From contig PWMI01000052.1 in assembly GCA_003558235.1 (NCBI GenBank), positions 1 through 41,587 on the forward strand: a stretch of 41,587 bases of DNA. Direction: 5' to 3'. The position numbers and the translations under genes were made by a program. Positions 5,844 through 36,084 of the stretch are shown here, one piece after another. The stretch's first letter is position 1. Every line of letters begins with the position of its first letter. The notes beneath the pieces were generated by a model. The model saw nothing but the letters and a program-made list of their open reading frames with translations, was not told the DNA's origin and ran no database searches. This DNA is from Candidatus Iainarchaeum sp. GTDB lineage: Archaea; B1Sed10-29.

Positions 5844-5963
5844 ATGAAGTGCTTTGAGTGCGATGTTAAGATGGATATGATGACGTTCGAGAGACGGAGA
5901 GGCCTTTACTACGGTGCTCTTCTCTGCCCAAGTTGCGGTAGAAAAGAGTTGGAAGGGAGCTAG
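5844..5963 (+). CDS. 39-aa zinc-ribbon microprotein MKCFECDVKMDMMTFERRRGLYYGALLCPSCGRKELEGS
   Basis: ATG at 5844, TAG at 5961-5963; CxxC...CxxC pairs; the interval between divergent recJ-like and convergent aCPSF2 is otherwise unexplained. Not in the supplied ORF track (below its size limit). Confidence 0.6.
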   Translation: MKCFECDVKMDMMTFERRRGLYYGALLCPSCGRKELEGS

Positions 5964-7291
5964 ATTCTGAACTCCTCATCTAGCCTTGGAATGTAGGTCT
6001 CCAGTTCTTTTTTCTCAAGTTCCTTGTTCAGGTTTTTTGTTCCTTCTTCATCTCCGTGAACGAGGAACACCATCCTTGGTTTGGGTATGTTCAGAGCGAA
6101 CTTTATCAGGTCCTTTTCGTCTGCGTGTGCGCTGAAGTGAAGTGTCTTAACGCTTGCTTTCACGTTCACTTCCTTTTCGTTTGGTAGTGTCACTTTTTTC
6201 TTTCCATCCATCAGGTCCCTTCCAGGGGTTCCTTCAACCTGGTAACCCACTAGGATTATTTTGTTGTTTGGATCATCGGCGAGTTCCTCCATGTACTTTA
6301 TCACGGGGCCACCGGTGATCATTCCAGAGGTTGTTAGGATTATCGTGGCTTTATCGTTCTTAGTTACATCGGAACGGCTCTTCGTTTGCGGTGAATTAAA
6401 GTACTCTGAGTCGAAGGGGTTCTCCTGAGCCATCAGTATTCTTTTCGGGATTTCTTCCTTGGCGTAGATGACGTTCTGACGGTGTATCGCGTTTGCTTTC
6501 TTGATCATCCCGTCGATGAATCCATCTACCTTCGGGATGTACCCCGATTTTATGTAGTTGTCCAGGATGAGCATCAGTTCCTGGGCCCTTCCAACCCCGA
6601 AAGTGGGTACTATCACTTTCCCTCCCTTCTTTATCGTTTTCCTTACTTCTTCCGCTAGTTCCTTGCTGTTCGTCTTAAGTTCAATCGTTTTCCCGCTCCC
6701 ACCATAAGTTGATTCCATTATCAAAGCGTCTACTGGCTCTATGTCTGAATCAGCCTTGTCCAGTATGTTACTTTCCTTGTATGAAAAGTCCCCGGTGTAA
6801 AGTAAAGAGGACTTCCTGTCTTCCAACCTTATTAAGGCGGCTCCCAGGATGTGCCCTGCTTTATACAGTGTTAAGTGAACACCTTTACCTATCTTAACCT
6901 TTTCCCTAAACTCTATGTACTCTATGTCCTTCATTATGTTGTTGATGTCTTTCTGAGTGAACTCAGGGTCTCTTTCCTCCTTCGCGATCCTTAGGTAGTC
7001 ACTCAGAAGAAGCTGCATCAGATCCCTAGTCGGCTTCGTTGCGTATATCTTCCCCCTCCACCCTCTAGCGTAGAGGTGAGGCAGGTAACCTGAGTGATCC
7101 AGGTGAGTGTGACTTATTACAACAGAATCTATCCTCTTAATCATCTCCTTAGTGATATGGGGATACCTATCTTGGTCCTCCTTTGCCCCCAGTTTTATTC
7201 CACAGTCTAACAAGGTGCTTCCTCCGCTGTGGTCGACCAGTACACAGGATTTGCCTACTTCTCTGGCTCCTCCTAAAAACTTTATATCCAT
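5960..7291 (-). CDS. Metallo-beta-lactamase/beta-CASP ribonuclease, aCPSF2-like (no KH domains)
   Basis: HTHLDHSGYLPHLY, DFSYKESNILDKA, PTFGVGRAQELMLIL, HFSAHADEKDL, LVHGDEE; start set to ATG (MDIKFLGG) preceded by AAGGAG; the ORF track uses upstream TTG at 7321. Confidence 0.9.
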   Translation of the reverse strand: MDIKFLGGAREVGKSCVLVDHSGGSTLLDCGIKLGAKEDQDRYPHITKEMIKRIDSVVISHTHLDHSGYLPHLYARGWRGKIYATKPTRDLMQLLLSDYLRIAKEERDPEFTQKDINNIMKDIEYIEFREKVKIGKGVHLTLYKAGHILGAALIRLEDRKSSLLYTGDFSYKESNILDKADSDIEPVDALIMESTYGGSGKTIELKTNSKELAEEVRKTIKKGGKVIVPTFGVGRAQELMLILDNYIKSGYIPKVDGFIDGMIKKANAIHRQNVIYAKEEIPKRILMAQENPFDSEYFNSPQTKSRSDVTKNDKATIILTTSGMITGGPVIKYMEELADDPNNKIILVGYQVEGTPGRDLMDGKKKVTLPNEKEVNVKASVKTLHFSAHADEKDLIKFALNIPKPRMVFLVHGDEEGTKNLNKELEKKELETYIPRLDEEFRI

Positions 7292-7340
7292 TTCTATCAT
7301 CTCCTTTCTTTCTTCAATCAAACTTTCTTAGTTTGTTTTC

Positions 7341-12521: not shown

Positions 12522-15500
12522 ATGCCTTTAACCATAAGCGCCACCCTATCAACAATGGGGATACTAGGAATAATCCAAACACTCATCATCCCATTCCCAC
12601 CACTAGCATCAGGAATGGGGCTAATAACATCCATCCAAATAATAAACCAAGCCTCAGAAAGAATCTCAAAACTAGAAACCCCCATCGCAACAGAACAATA
12701 CATTAAAAGACACTACATTAACGATGAAACCAGCAGATACGTTAGACAAGCATGGGAAAACGCAGATAAAGCCAAAGAAAAGATAAACAAAGCAGAAAAA
12801 ACCATCAGGAGCACTACAGCAATGGGAAGCGAGTTTAAAACAATCGCTAAAGCAATGAAACCATATAGAGAAGCCTCAAAACACTATAAAATAGCCTTAG
12901 AAAACTCCAAAAAAGTATACGAAGAGATAGTGAAGGACATAGTCAGAAAAAACAACAAGTTAAAGTGGATGGGGGCAGATAGAGATTATACAGGTCCAGC
13001 AAGCCAGATGCATGAGAAGACACAAGAAATAATCTTAAAAATAAATCAAGAAGGAGAATGTACAGGTAAAAAAGACATAGCAACAACATTAAGCTGCCTA
13101 ACCTACAAAGTAAGGCAACAAAGAGAACTAAACCCAGAAATATTCAACGAAATACTCGCACCAGAAGAATCGATGCTATCACGCTACCACAATCTCAAGA
13201 AAGAAATAGACAAAAGCATCAGAAACATGCAAAGAGAACTAGAATCAAACCAAAAATACTACCAAGAAAAAGAAGACAAAGTAAACAAGTACCTAACACA
13301 CTTCGAAAGAGAAGGCGTCCTAAACATAAACCAGAACCCGGGAACAGGAAAAAGCCAGATAATAACAACCGGAATTGCTGGATCTCCGAGAGCAAAACTG
13401 ATAAACATACAAAATAGAGTATCAAGAGCACAGATACTAAAACAAAAAGCAGAATCAATAAACGAACTTAAAGAAGAAGGACACGTAGCAAAAGCAATCA
13501 AAACATACAAAGAAGCTAACTCAGAACTTAAAATTAGCGAGAAAGGAGTAGAAGACCTCGAAAAAAGACTAAAAGAAATAGAAAACTATTACATATTGGA
13601 AATAGAGAATAAAAGAACCCAACTAAGAAAAACACTAACTACCCCTTACATGGCAGCTGTACAAAGGAAGATAGAGACAGCTAAAGAAGAAAAAACCTAC
13701 AAACAAAGGATAAGAAGATTATCCGAAACTCTAGAGTACCTAAAATCCCTCGAAAAACTAGATCAAGACGGCATAGTAACAATACAAACAGAAATGAAAA
13801 ATCTAGAAGAAGACCTAAAAGAATACATCTCCATGGGATACAACCTGGAAGACAAACTAGCAAAACTAGAGCACCTAAAACGAATAAAGGACCCTGAGAT
13901 GATACCTGGGGTCTACGAAACCCTCCAAAACATAAAAAAAACAACTGAAATAAGGCTAACACCACTGAAACAAAAAATAGAAAGTAAAAGAGAACTAGCG
14001 GACAAGTACATAAGATCAGCAGAGACACTCAACACCAACACCCACACCAAAAACAGAATAGATCAAATACAACTCAGAAACCTCCGACAAGATTACAACG
14101 AAGCAGCATACAGAGACACACTAAAAAACCCACAGGAAAAAATACAGACCTATGAAACAATAATAAACACAGTCAGACCAGCCATAGACCAGTTAAAATC
14201 ACAACTAATATCCTCAAACACAGAAATAAACGTAGAAACAATAAACTCAGCAAAATGCAATGAAGAAGTAATCCAAAAAATCACCATAGACATAAACAAC
14301 CCACTACCAATAACCCTCTACGACACAAAAATACAGAAAGAACTCCCCATCGTAATTGGGGAAACAAGAACCATAGAAACATGGGAAAAAGGAATAAAAG
14401 TGAACCAGAACATCCTCAATCCAATGCAACAAGAAAGAATCACAGCAAAAGCAAAGATAACACCCTACACCTGCGAAGAGATATCTAAAAAAACCCTATC
14501 AGCCAACGAAGCAGAGACAACGAAGATGAAGGAAGTACTAATCAAAAAACATGCAGCAATGGACAAAGTAAAGATAGAAACAGGACTAGAAAAAAACAAC
14601 ATAGTACACCAACCGATAAATTCAGAGTTCAAGGATGGAAACGTTATACTAGAAACACCTTGGGAAGAAAAAACCATAAAAATAACGTACCGAAAACCCA
14701 CGGAAATAACCATAAAAGAAGAGAAACAAACAACGAACGAAGGAAAGATACACCACAAGATAGAGCTCTTTAACGCGGGACCAAGCATACACAACTTCAC
14801 AGTAACCAGAAAGATAGATCCAATAGGAACAATAGAAAGCAACCACAACTTTGAAAAAATACAAAACCACGTAGAAATAAAAATTCCACTCCTAAAAAAC
14901 CATGAAATAATAGAGATAACATACCTAGCAAAAAACCTACAACAAGAAGCATTGACCCTCATAGTAGATCTCGAAGTAGCAAACGCAACCAAAGAAACCA
15001 CCAGAAACCAAGAAACACAACTAAAAAAACTCATAGGGCACTACGAAGCAGGAAGATACAACGAAGTGCTTAAAGAAGCACCACAACTACTGAATGAAAT
15101 AAAGAAGATGCCCGAAGAAACATACTCTCAAGAAGAGACATCCTACTCGGAGCAAAAAGATGAGAAAGACATAGAAAACCAATACGATGGAGAAATCCTC
15201 CGAATCAACGAAAAAATAACTCAGGTAAGCCACTTCAACGAAGCAAAAGAACTAAAAAACAGATTGAACGAAATAAAGGAACAAAATGACTACAATCAAC
15301 TAGAAAAACTAAGAAAAGAAATAAAAGAGATGGAAGAACAAACGATAGATAAAATAGTCAATGAAGGGTACTCGGAGATCGAAGAAGCAGTAAAGAAGCT
15401 AGAAAAAGCCTTCAACCTTGAAAAAAGCTATGAAATAGATCAATCTACACCATATGGTCCAAAAGACCTGGAAAGCATTCGGGAGAGGTACGAAGAAATC

Positions 15501-15938
15501 CAAGAAAACAGGCCCTCTACAACGTTAACAACATATAACCTACAGAGCCTAATTGACTCAAAAGGACTAGAAGACCTAAAAAGGCTCTTGAGAAATCGTG
15601 AGGATCTTCTTCAAGATACAGAAGCCCTAATAAGAAACATGGAAAGAACCGCCATGACTGAAATGGAGATAGCTGCTGAGAAGTACAGTAACGCAGAGAA
15701 CGAACTAAATGCCAGGTGGTTAAAAAGAACAAAAGAACACTACCAGGAGGGAGAGTACCTGAACGCAATCGCAGCTGCAAAAAAAATCGAAGATGGTTCA
15801 ACCAGCAAATGGAAAGCATTTCCAATAAGATACCTAGTAGCGGGTGCAATGCTATCTGGAAGCATCTTATACTTCCTCAAGAAACCGAGAAAAAAACCCA
15901 GGAAACCAATAACCATGAAACTAAAAAGAGGGAGCTAG
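12522..15938 (+). CDS. 1138-aa coiled-coil protein with N- and C-terminal TM segments and internal beta-rich domains
   Basis: N-terminal hydrophobic LSTMGILGIIQTLIIPFPPLASGMGL; multiple heptad-rich blocks; beta-rich stretch around residues ~560-810 (KIELFNAGPSIHNFTVTRKI...); C-terminal RYLVAGAMLSGSILYFL followed by KKPRKKPRK. Confidence 0.8.
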   Translation: MPLTISATLSTMGILGIIQTLIIPFPPLASGMGLITSIQIINQASERISKLETPIATEQYIKRHYINDETSRYVRQAWENADKAKEKINKAEKTIRSTTAMGSEFKTIAKAMKPYREASKHYKIALENSKKVYEEIVKDIVRKNNKLKWMGADRDYTGPASQMHEKTQEIILKINQEGECTGKKDIATTLSCLTYKVRQQRELNPEIFNEILAPEESMLSRYHNLKKEIDKSIRNMQRELESNQKYYQEKEDKVNKYLTHFEREGVLNINQNPGTGKSQIITTGIAGSPRAKLINIQNRVSRAQILKQKAESINELKEEGHVAKAIKTYKEANSELKISEKGVEDLEKRLKEIENYYILEIENKRTQLRKTLTTPYMAAVQRKIETAKEEKTYKQRIRRLSETLEYLKSLEKLDQDGIVTIQTEMKNLEEDLKEYISMGYNLEDKLAKLEHLKRIKDPEMIPGVYETLQNIKKTTEIRLTPLKQKIESKRELADKYIRSAETLNTNTHTKNRIDQIQLRNLRQDYNEAAYRDTLKNPQEKIQTYETIINTVRPAIDQLKSQLISSNTEINVETINSAKCNEEVIQKITIDINNPLPITLYDTKIQKELPIVIGETRTIETWEKGIKVNQNILNPMQQERITAKAKITPYTCEEISKKTLSANEAETTKMKEVLIKKHAAMDKVKIETGLEKNNIVHQPINSEFKDGNVILETPWEEKTIKITYRKPTEITIKEEKQTTNEGKIHHKIELFNAGPSIHNFTVTRKIDPIGTIESNHNFEKIQNHVEIKIPLLKNHEIIEITYLAKNLQQEALTLIVDLEVANATKETTRNQETQLKKLIGHYEAGRYNEVLKEAPQLLNEIKKMPEETYSQEETSYSEQKDEKDIENQYDGEILRINEKITQVSHFNEAKELKNRLNEIKEQNDYNQLEKLRKEIKEMEEQTIDKIVNEGYSEIEEAVKKLEKAFNLEKSYEIDQSTPYGPKDLESIRERYEEIQENRPSTTLTTYNLQSLIDSKGLEDLKRLLRNREDLLQDTEALIRNMERTAMTEMEIAAEKYSNAENELNARWLKRTKEHYQEGEYLNAIAAAKKIEDGSTSKWKAFPIRYLVAGAMLSGSILYFLKKPRKKPRKPITMKLKRGS

Positions 15939-19732: not shown

Positions 19733-21628
19733 CTAGATTAATCTCAGTGAATCTAGGTTATGTAGTACCTGTGTGTCGGTGTGGAACTTGTAGTTTATGC
19801 TCTTGGCGAGGTTCTTGCACTTGTTTTCTTCCCCGTGAATCGTTAGGACTTTTTTGGGGGTTGGAGTTAGTTTTTTGAAGTACCCCAGTAACTCGTTTAT
19901 GTCTGCGTGTCCACTGAATCCTTTTATCTTCTCAACATTCATGTTTAGTTCATATTCCTTCATCTGCCCGTTGTTGTCGGGTAGTGCTATCTTGTCTGGT
20001 TTTCTTTCTACTTTTCGCCCAAGTGTTCTTTGTCCTTGGTAACCTACTGAGATTATTGTGTTCTTTGGATCTTCACATGTTTGTTTGAAGTATGACAGTA
20101 TGGGTCCCCCGTCCATCATTCCACTGGGGGAGAGTATGACTGCTTTTCCTCTGTCTACTATCTTGTCTCTTTCACGTGGGTCTACTCTTTGGAAGATCTT
20201 GGAGTCAAATGGGGAGTCCCCGTGTAGTATTCTTTTCTTCACGTTTCTTTTTAGGAACTCAGGATAGGCTGTGTGTATTGCGGATGCTTCTTTGGTCATT
20301 CCGTCCAAGTAAACGGGTGCGTTGAAGTTTCCTTTTCTATAGTTCTCTTCTAGAATAAGCATTATTACTTGAGCTCGTCCTACGCCAAATACTGGGATTA
20401 GTACAAGACCGTTTTTATCTACTGTTTTTGTCACTACGTCCATAAGTTTTTTCTTACTTTGCCTTGTGTCTTCTTGTTTATCTTGTTGCCCTCCGTACGT
20501 GCTTTCGGTTAATAGCGTTTCTGCTCGTGGGAACCTTGTGTGTGCGGGGTTAAGTAGTTCGGTGTATCCAAATTTAAAGTCACCTGTGTATATGAGGTTG
20601 TGTTCACCTTCTCCTATGTGGATATGGCTTATGCTTGATCCTAGTATGTGTCCTGCGTTGTAGAGTGTTAGCCGCATGTCTGGAGTGATGTCTGTTACTT
20701 CTCCGTATCCTTTCGTTACTGAGTGTAGTATTTCTTTTTTTATGTTTTTTTCTGAGTAGGGTGTTTTTTGTCCTTCTCTTTTGTTTATCTTCACGTAGTC
20801 TTTTTGAAGGAGGGTCATGAGGTCCCTTGTGGGTTCAGTTGAGTAAACTGGTCCTTCGTAGCCGTAGTTGTATAGGTATGGTACGAATCCGCCATGGTCT
20901 AGGTGGGCGTGGCTTACTACTACTGCGTCCAGTTCATCTAGGGAGAAGTTGATTGTGCTGAGTAGGGGGTATGCTTCTTCTCCTTCGACTCCTAGTTTTA
21001 TTCCGCAGTCGAGCATTATTTTACTGTTTGGGGTTTCAAGTAGGAAACAACTTCTTCCGACTTCTCTGCTTGCTCCTAGGGAGGTTATTTTGACCCACTT
21101 TATTTCTTCTGGGGGTTCTCGATATATCTTTTCCCCTAGCTCGGTTAGTATCTTTTTTCTTTCGCTTCCTTCATTTATCATCATCTGGCGAATTGCTTTT
21201 AGGGTGGTGGATTCGCCGGTTGGTATTCTCTGGAGCTTTGGTTTCCAACCTGTTTTTATGTTGATCTTTTTTATGGTTTTTCCGCCTTTTCCTATTACTA
21301 ATCCTAGTTTATCCGCGGTGATTACTACTTCGTTGAAGTCTGGATTGAACTCTATTGTTTGTATCTCTGCGTCGGAGGGAACTATTTCTTTGATCATCTT
21401 TTCGGCTCTTTCTGGGGGTTCGAGCATCGAGTCATCTGCTCGTGGAACGAATCTTTTTTTGAAGTTCTCTGCGAGGTGTTTTATTATGTCTCCTTTGTTC
21501 AGAAGTTTTGAGATGTTTTTTGAGTACAGAACGAGGTCTGGTCCTTCTGCTTCTACTTTTGTTAACATTGCTTCTGGGGGTGTTGCGTCCTTTATTTTTT
21601 CTTTTAGTTCTTCTAGGTATGTGTCCAT
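19733..21628 (-). CDS. aCPSF1: KH-domain metallo-beta-lactamase/beta-CASP transcription-termination ribonuclease
   Basis: N-terminal KH region (VVITADKLGLVIGKGGKTIKKI); HAHLDHGGFVPYLYNYGYEGPVYSTEPTRDLMTLL; GFSGHADINELLGYF; LTIHGEENKC. Confidence 0.95.
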   Translation of the reverse strand: MDTYLEELKEKIKDATPPEAMLTKVEAEGPDLVLYSKNISKLLNKGDIIKHLAENFKKRFVPRADDSMLEPPERAEKMIKEIVPSDAEIQTIEFNPDFNEVVITADKLGLVIGKGGKTIKKINIKTGWKPKLQRIPTGESTTLKAIRQMMINEGSERKKILTELGEKIYREPPEEIKWVKITSLGASREVGRSCFLLETPNSKIMLDCGIKLGVEGEEAYPLLSTINFSLDELDAVVVSHAHLDHGGFVPYLYNYGYEGPVYSTEPTRDLMTLLQKDYVKINKREGQKTPYSEKNIKKEILHSVTKGYGEVTDITPDMRLTLYNAGHILGSSISHIHIGEGEHNLIYTGDFKFGYTELLNPAHTRFPRAETLLTESTYGGQQDKQEDTRQSKKKLMDVVTKTVDKNGLVLIPVFGVGRAQVIMLILEENYRKGNFNAPVYLDGMTKEASAIHTAYPEFLKRNVKKRILHGDSPFDSKIFQRVDPRERDKIVDRGKAVILSPSGMMDGGPILSYFKQTCEDPKNTIISVGYQGQRTLGRKVERKPDKIALPDNNGQMKEYELNMNVEKIKGFSGHADINELLGYFKKLTPTPKKVLTIHGEENKCKNLAKSINYKFHTDTQVLHNLDSLRLI

Positions 21629-33051: not shown

Positions 33052-33618
33052 ATGTTGAATGAGGAACAGGGAAAAGAGTTGATTCAACTCGCTAGGAAGA
33101 ATATGGAGAACTTTCTCCAAACGGGAAAGAGACTTCGTTTAAACTATCATGAACTCCCTGACTACATGAAGGAAAGTGCTGGAATCTTTGTTACCTTAAA
33201 GGGCAATATGGGGGAACTAAGAGGGTGTATTGGGATACCTTATCCTGATCAAAGCTTGGTCGAGGGATTGCTGGAGGCTTCAGTTTCTTCCATGGTGGAT
33301 CCGAGGTTCCTTCCGGTTACGGGGGATGAGTTAGATAGCTTGATCATCGAGTTAACTGTTTTGAGTGAACCAGAAAAAGTGGAGGTAGGAGACATGAATG
33401 AAGCGAAAGAAAGGATAGTGATTGGACAGCATGGCTTGATCATCAGGAAAGGATTGAATTCAGGGCTGCTTCTTCCACAAGTTCCTTTGGAGCATGAAAT
33501 GAATTTAAAGGAGTTTCTGGAGGCTGTTTGCAGTAAAGCAGGTTTGAATAAGGGGGATTGGAAGGAAGAAGATACGGAGGTCTATAGGTTTGAAGGAAAA
33601 GTGTTCAGAGAAGATTAA
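33052..33618 (+). CDS. AMMECR1-family protein
   Basis: GIFVTLKGNMGELRGCIG...DPRFLPVTGDELDSLIIELTVLSEPEKV. Confidence 0.9.
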   Translation: MLNEEQGKELIQLARKNMENFLQTGKRLRLNYHELPDYMKESAGIFVTLKGNMGELRGCIGIPYPDQSLVEGLLEASVSSMVDPRFLPVTGDELDSLIIELTVLSEPEKVEVGDMNEAKERIVIGQHGLIIRKGLNSGLLLPQVPLEHEMNLKEFLEAVCSKAGLNKGDWKEEDTEVYRFEGKVFRED

Positions 33619-33644: not shown

Positions 33645-34652
33645 TTAAAGGTGATTGAGGGGTTCAAGGTACTTAGGGTTTCTTTTGAAGTGTTCTCTGA
33701 TTGGTTTCAATATTTCTACTACTGCTTTTGCTGTGGATTTTTTAAGGTCTGCGGGGTGTAGTTCTCCGGATGAGAAGTCTTTTTCTAAGTCGTCCATCGT
33801 GGAGTAAGTTACGTTTCCACCGTACTTTTCAGGTCTTTCTACATCTAACTTCCCTTGCATTGGAAAGACGGCTAACCGAACTATCTCCATTATGGGGTTG
33901 CCCTCGATAGCGCTTTCCATGCAGTACGCTCCCATTATTCTTTCTTCTATAACTTCGGGTTCTGCGTGAAGGGGGAAGGTGGTCTTAGGTTCGCTTGAAC
34001 TCATCTTGGTTTCAGGCCCCTGTAAAGATATCAACATGGGGTTGTATATCGAGGTTGGTGAACTGTACCCTATGTCCGGTAAGTAGTCTCTTGCGAGCAT
34101 ATAGACTTTCCTTTGGTCTATTCCTCCGTGTGCTATGTCTGCATTTAGGTGGGGTACATCTATGGCTTGCATTAGGGGGTATATGAGTTGGGAGACTCCT
34201 GTAGTTTCTCCACCTCTTGAGACTTCCCTCATGCTTCGAGTCCCTCTGTTTATAGTCACTCTGGTGGAGAGTTCAAGGACATCTGTTACGTACTTCGAGG
34301 TTGTCTGGAAACTTGAACCTAATACGTAGTCCACGTCTTTGAGTCCAAATGCTTTGAATGTTTCTTCCCAGTATCTAGCCATGTTCTTTATCCATTCTCT
34401 TTCTCCTTTTAGGTTTTAGTAGGTGTGAAGATCAGCTAAAAGGAGTTTTATTTCTAACCCTGCTTTTTGGTAGTCTCGTAGCTTGATCAGGGTCGTCATC
34501 GTTCCTAAATGCACGGGGCCACTTACCTCGTATCCACAGTATACTGTTGGACTCTTCTTCGTCTCCAGGAGGTTCTCCAGTTCCTCTTCCGTGACTACTT
34601 CCTCAACGTTTCTTTTTATCAATTCAAGCTTTTCTTCTTTATCCATCTTCAT
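33645..34652 (-). pseudogene. tyrS: Tyrosyl-tRNA synthetase interrupted by one in-frame TAA (34416-34418); functional status unresolved
   Basis: 34652..34416 (PVHLGTMTTLIKLRDY...LLADLHTY*) and 34382..33645 (ARYWEETFKAFGL...HGGIDQRKVYMLARD...ETKMSSSEPK) are in the same frame; the 11 codons between the stop and the next ATG read NLKGEREWIKN, consistent with TyrRS. Confidence 0.85.
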
Positions 34653-34926
34653 CTTCCTTCAATAACTCATTTATCTCTTCTAACTGTGAAGTTAAGCTCA
34701 TTATGTCTGTTCTAGCGTGGAATGGAATATTTATGTCTTCTGATACATCGTTGAGCAGATATATCGCTCTTGCTATCCTCATATCTTCTTCTTCCTCTTC
34801 ATTTTCTAGTTCTTTTTTAGCGTTCTTTATCTTTTCCTTTACGTTTCGAGGAACATCCCTATCTTTCACGACTAGGTCCATTTCTTCTTTCAAGTTATCC
34901 ACCATGTCTTGTATTTCTTTTTTCAT
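34639..34926 (-). CDS. UPF0147 family protein
   Basis: VKDRDVPRNVKEKIKNAKKEL...ARAIYLLNDVSEDINIPFHARTDIMSLTSQLEEI. Confidence 0.85.
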   Translation of the reverse strand: MKKEIQDMVDNLKEEMDLVVKDRDVPRNVKEKIKNAKKELENEEEEEDMRIARAIYLLNDVSEDINIPFHARTDIMSLTSQLEEINELLKEDEDG

Positions 34927-35028: not shown

Positions 35029-36084
35029 GTGGATTTACTTGGAACGAGCATAACTGGACTGGCTTCCATGTCTTTAACGGAGATCTTTTCGTTCACAACA
35101 GCAGTAAACTTGGTTCTCATAACTCTTATAGGGATTCTAGCAGCATATATCTTTCCAAAGATTCCTTCATGGTTCTGTAAAAAGATAAATAAGCTCTCCT
35201 TCATCAACTTCGATGAAGAGGTCCAAGGAGAGGCCTCCAAGGTAATACGCTGGATAGTTTATATCTCAGTGTTATACTCAGCTCTTTACGCTGTGGGGTT
35301 TGTAAAGATATATGAAAATCCTCTTTTCCAGCTAGTTCTTCTTTTATTTGCAATGAAGGCAATCATCAGTGCACTTAAACCTTCTCTGAGAAAGTTGGAT
35401 GCTGCTATAAAGGGGGTTAAGGTCCATGAAGGTAGCATAATGGAAAAAATAGTGGTGACGAGCATCTACATCATAGGCTTATTCGCGGCATTATCAGTAA
35501 TAGGTGTTGGAGGGGCCCTAACAGCGGGGCTAGCAGGAGCAGGAGTAATGGGAATAGTGATAGGTTTTGGAGCAAAGGACTTAGTATCCAACACACTTTC
35601 AGGAATATTCATAGCGATAGATAAGCCATTCGTGGTTGGAGACATAATAGAAATCAAAGGAGAAGCAGGTACAGTAGTGGACATGGGTCTAAGGACCACT
35701 AGAATCAGAAAATTCGATAATAGGATGGTAACAGTCCCTAACGCATCCTTAGCAAACAATCTTCTGATAAACTACACTGCCAACAAACTCAGAAGGGTCA
35801 GTATAGAAGTGGGCATAAACTATAGTTCGGACATGGAGAAGTCCATAAAAACATTTAAAGAGGCACTTGAATCAATAGGTTCTTCTGCAAAAGGAAAAGA
35901 ACCACAAGTCCTAATAAGTGAGTTCGGGGACTCAGCAATAGAGCTAGAAGGAAGGATTTGGATAAACCAAAGAAAACACAGCTTTGTTGAAGAGGCTTCC
36001 AAGGCAAAAGAGGCGGTCATAGAACACTTCCGGAAAAACGAAGTGGGAATACCGTTCCCAACGAGAGTCATAATACAGAAGTAG
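35029..36084 (+). CDS. mscS: MscS-family small-conductance mechanosensitive channel
   Basis: GLAGAGVMGIVIGFGAKDLVSNTLSGIFIAIDKPFVVGDIIEIKGEAGTVVDMGLRTTRIRKFDNRMVTVPNASLAN; GTG start. Confidence 0.94.
   Translation: MDLLGTSITGLASMSLTEIFSFTTAVNLVLITLIGILAAYIFPKIPSWFCKKINKLSFINFDEEVQGEASKVIRWIVYISVLYSALYAVGFVKIYENPLFQLVLLLFAMKAIISALKPSLRKLDAAIKGVKVHEGSIMEKIVVTSIYIIGLFAALSVIGVGGALTAGLAGAGVMGIVIGFGAKDLVSNTLSGIFIAIDKPFVVGDIIEIKGEAGTVVDMGLRTTRIRKFDNRMVTVPNASLANNLLINYTANKLRRVSIEVGINYSSDMEKSIKTFKEALESIGSSAKGKEPQVLISEFGDSAIELEGRIWINQRKHSFVEEASKAKEAVIEHFRKNEVGIPFPTRVIIQK

Follow-up and report, generated by a model that had tools for sequence, protein, structure and literature searches.

How can an archaeal genome carry its gene for tyrosyl-tRNA synthetase (TyrRS), an essential enzyme, with a stop codon in the midst of conserved coding sequence? 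The gene (tyrS) lies in a 41,587-nucleotide stretch of Candidatus Iainarchaeum sp., contig PWMI01000052.1, which is referred to here as the window. The source genome is a draft assembly in 99 contigs and is approximately 82% complete. We could read 757 kb of its 829 kb, with 26 short contigs (72 kb, ~9%) masked.

A TyrRS gene with a single in-frame TAA

The minus strand at 33645-34646 encodes an archaeal TyrRS interrupted by a single TAA. One frame reads ...LLLADLHTY-TAA-NLKGEREWIKN-MARYWEETFKAFG... without a frame change, with the TAA at 34418-34416 on the minus strand, where the plus strand reads TTA. The 5' part including the TAA (34416-34646, minus strand) has 76 codons from ATG 34646, or 78 from ATG 34652, and contains a HIGH-type motif, PVHLG. 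The TAA itself (34416-34418, minus strand) occupies the site of a conserved Leu, residue 77. It is followed by an 11-codon spacer, NLKGEREWIKN (34383-34415, minus strand), which runs to the next in-frame ATG and is conserved and nominally untranslated. The 3' part (33645-34382, minus strand) gives 245 amino acids from ATG 34382 and contains the KMSSS motif.

Both parts match NF006330 (archaeal tyrosine--tRNA ligase), a curated NCBI equivalog model of 342 positions. The N part corresponds to model positions 1-76 (E 4.2e-27) and also matches PF00579 (E 2.3e-08), while the C part corresponds to model positions 90-337, scoring 283.7 bits against a cut-off of 220. Judged by these profile matches, the end-to-end agreement of the two parts with the same archaeal model is far greater than chance would give. 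Among PDB entries, the top match is the TyrRS 2cyb, which aligns over residues 1-318. The gene thus resembles archaeal/eukaryotic-type TyrRS (NF006330; PDB 2cyb, 1j1u) in its full-length match on either side of the TAA and in having the HLG and KMSSS motifs in place. It differs by one TAA at the conserved Leu of ADLHxYLNxKG, which breaks the otherwise uninterrupted frame of an archaeal TyrRS at 34416-34418 in the assembly. A sequence-only reading of this locus had described a TAA inside a class I TyrRS, with coding sequence on both sides and no frame change; the same-frame reading, the NF006330 matches, and the two catalytic motifs confirm this description.

Elsewhere in the window, two minus-strand ORFs (5960-7321 and 19733-21628) look alike by eye and have metallo-beta-lactamase-like motifs, one of them with an extra N-terminal part. 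A 1138-aa ORF at 12522-15938 is rich in Lys and Glu; it probably forms a coiled coil and seems to have a membrane segment towards its C end.

The TAA site and the tyrS neighborhood in relatives

At the TAA site, relatives with readable sequence have Leu, or in a few cases Met or Ile. In the nearest genome, which belongs to the same family and is 72% identical, the codon is CTG, as read in each of two separate assemblies (PULY01000047.1 and PWHJ01000234.1) with no difference over the 855 bases compared. No other genome examined has a stop at this codon. Among 60 further genomes, stops were also flagged in five tyrS matches (L008, L009, L014, L017, and L020), and all of these stops lie outside the aligned gene. 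The residues found at the TAA site agree with the earlier proposal that the stop replaces a conserved Leu and is one base off the Leu codon TTA, which makes up approximately 10% of Leu codons in the source genome.

Compared with the nearest genome, tyrS has 81, 35, and 174 differences at codon positions 1, 2, and 3, respectively, spread along the whole gene. In the spacer, 7 of 11 residues are identical to those of the closest relative, and the changes are mostly at third positions. The gene order is common to the relative as well, comprising the 35029-36084 ORF, UPF0147, tyrS, AMMECR1, and a DNA polymerase small-subunit-type gene. Since tyrS is constrained over its full length and the gene order is kept, this is the ancestral tyrS, with a lesion that is either very young or absent.

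The UPF0147 gene lies just upstream of tyrS (34639-34926, minus strand; PF03685, E 1.5e-22), in an order kept in the relative. Its reading frame runs past the tyrS start before reaching its stop codon, giving an overlap of a few bases. The AMMECR1-family gene (33052-33618, plus strand; PF01871) is a convergent neighbor, with the same order in the relative (L032, 4357-3791). The nearest relative has an intron-bearing tRNA-Tyr(GTA) directly ahead of tyrS, where it separates that gene from UPF0147 (L032:2594-2705; L033:2281-2392). The source genome has its tRNA-Tyr elsewhere (C63:49846-49956), and UPF0147 overlaps tyrS instead. L033 (PWHJ01000234.1) is a contig from a Bacteroidetes bin that carries archaeal UPF0147, tRNA-Tyr, and tyrS, the last being the same as in the Diapherotrites-labelled bin over those 855 bases; this contig is probably mis-binned. 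A search among viral contigs found no relative.

One interior stop among the compared genes

The visible genome, joined from stretches, was compared gene by gene with as much of the nearest genome as could be read, and shadow frames were removed by overlap. This comparison covered 133 genes and 32,785 aligned codons and gave 13 stops. Twelve of these fall in the first ~35 aligned columns, where they lie ahead of a start codon, within a tRNA or spacer, or in what is probably a shadow frame. This leaves the TAA in tyrS as the sole in-frame stop in a gene interior.

TAA is also the commonest terminator in this genome, closing 131 of the 332 long ORFs that end inside a contig. With this many ordinary uses and one interior case in the aligned codons, reassignment of TAA to a sense codon throughout the genome lacks support. 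The sequence-only reading had reached the same view from TAA codons ending other genes in the window, for example at 2649, where we confirmed the ORF end. The genome also has an eRF1-family gene, at C87 6561-6950; another, weaker match at C41 may represent a pelota-type relative. A genome-wide codon-usage scan for readthrough-like stop pairs was less informative, as most of the listed top matches resemble gene ends adjoining gene starts.

Readthrough of the UAA as a possible explanation

A near-cognate or suppressor tRNA could in principle read through the UAA at this site alone and yield full-length TyrRS, and the frame and catalytic motifs retained on either side would suit such a mechanism. 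Several observations make this highly improbable. Beyond the frequent use of TAA as a terminator and the presence of an eRF1-family gene, the tRNA-Tyr has a normal GTA anticodon, and ARAGORN scans with introns found no UUA-anticodon tRNA in this incomplete genome. The tRNA at C63 49846-49956, which ARAGORN labels as Leu, was considered as an ochre-suppressor tRNA-Tyr and rejected, as it keeps the normal GTA anticodon region CCTGTAGT. Two "Pyl" calls and one "SeC" call are intron-bearing tRNAs with unreliable anticodons; as called, they would read UAG and UGA, not UAA. The 120 bases past the TAA gave no sign of a stimulating RNA structure, their folding being no stronger than that of shuffles (z -0.03, with 0.57 for the stop-less relative).

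Programmed readthrough would also be expected to show a stop conserved in relatives, and the relatives have none at this site. According to a 2021 review (PMC8211752), readthrough in archaea is reported only for selenocysteine and pyrrolysine, at UGA and UAG. The tyrS case resembles these recoding systems in having an in-frame stop within a conserved gene. However, the stop is UAA rather than UGA or UAG, it is unconserved in relatives, and no matching tRNA or RNA element was found. Readthrough had been among the explanations offered from the sequence, and the termination machinery, the tRNA set, and the RNA folding together push it far down.

A possible TyrRS made of two chains

Another explanation offered from the sequence was a two-polypeptide TyrRS, in which an N part of 76-78 aa and a C part of 245 aa initiated at ATG 34382 would assemble in trans. 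Each part has an open frame. An out-of-frame ATG follows 7 nt after an SD-like AAAGGAG, and the six-codon frame that begins at this ATG ends at a TAG overlapping ATG 34382, which makes termination-reinitiation conceivable. However, the relative has an intact gene and yet shares both the SD-like AAAGGAG and the overlapping ATGGCTAG seen near ATG 34382, so this pattern is best seen as a by-product of coding.

The structure predicted for the protein argues in the same direction. In an AF2 model that places Leu at the TAA (mean pLDDT 91.8), a short helix (72-77) ends with residue 77, and a loop leads on to the next helix (83-99). The modelled break comes after helix 72-77, and ATG 34382 corresponds to residue 89, inside helix 83-99, and a C part starting there would cut a core helix. 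A split synthetase would be expected to divide at a domain or loop border and to leave a decayed spacer. Here the C part would start within a helix, and conservation persists across the 11 codons of the spacer. The retained spacer had earlier been taken as an argument against an old split, and this holds, as the spacer remains coding-like and no relative is split at the TAA site. We found nothing in the literature on a split TyrRS in archaea. Taken from sequence and model, we found no support for an evolved split tyrS, and the conserved spacer, the cut helix, and the unsplit relatives leave assembly in trans with a very slim chance of being correct.

A probable consensus error or, less likely, a recent nonsense allele

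With these two mechanisms pushed down, two of the explanations first proposed are left standing, an error in the assembly and a recent nonsense mutation. We think it probable that this is an ordinary archaeal tyrS in which one consensus base is wrong, an isolated error in the draft assembly of a metagenome. The population would then most likely carry TTA (Leu) at this codon, and we infer that a sense codon would be present in the reads. The wrong base most likely arose as a base error or as a strain-mixing artefact of metagenome assembly.

A consensus error is favored because the tyrS TAA is the sole interior stop in the gene-by-gene comparison, and because constraint is otherwise evident along the full length of the gene, spacer included. 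Moreover, no other tyrS was found in the visible assembly, the gene order around this copy is conserved, and the enzyme is essential. The Leu codon TTA is one base away and in regular use, and the genome is an incomplete draft in many contigs, both of which favor the same reading. Counting against an error, the changed base lies outside any long homopolymer or error-prone repeat.

The expected number of such errors also favors this explanation. Approximately 4.7% of single-base changes in the codons of the source genome yield a stop; if the consensus carries 1e-5 to 1e-4 errors per base, a rate assumed rather than measured here, a genome of this size would contain ~0.3 to 3 false stops. In a GeneTack survey (PMC3711429), disrupted genes that are singletons validated by homology are expected to reflect sequencing errors, not genuine mutations. 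The tyrS case resembles these singletons in being confined to one genome, validated by homology on both sides, and free of a conserved recoding site, but the survey covers frameshifts and the lesion here is an in-frame nonsense codon.

Lesions in tyrS are also seen in other draft genomes, at unrelated sites, which again favors an error. In a control archaeal phylum, 131 of 156 genomes have a tyrS match, and two of these have flagged stops. The lesions are in other places and of other kinds, as random errors or decay predict. The tyrS of G136 (L169, G136:C4) has a garbled stretch with a TGA near the HIGH motif. G107 has one tyrS copy with a frame break (L170, G107:C88) and a second that is intact (L171).

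The main rival to a consensus error, next in rank and distinctly less likely, is a real and recent nonsense allele. The cell or strain would then rely on a tyrS outside the visible assembly, or the TAA would be a minority allele that entered the consensus. A second copy could hide in the masked ~9% of the assembly or in what is missing from a genome that is ~82% complete. There is also precedent in the control phylum, where a few genomes carry two tyrS genes and in one case one copy is decayed (L170). Against this, we found no second tyrS in the 757 kb of visible sequence, and BLAST found no second copy of the locus there. The earlier suggestion of a second TyrRS gene is therefore unsupported in the visible part and keeps room only in the masked and missing parts. 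The copy with the TAA is also syntenic and has no other lesion, so a nonsense allele would have to be very young.

Implications

The TAA is present in the assembly, yet nothing we tested suggests that it is a biological feature. We regard it as very unlikely that the TAA is real and fixed in a sole tyrS, with the enzyme produced by UAA readthrough or from two assembling chains. To our knowledge, neither has a precedent in an archaeal TyrRS. The case shows how one base in a draft metagenome genome can mimic recoding, and how a gene-by-gene comparison with a relative tells a solitary lesion from a genome-wide pattern. If the TAA does prove real and fixed, this archaeon would make an essential enzyme either by an unreported readthrough of UAA or with a newly split synthetase.
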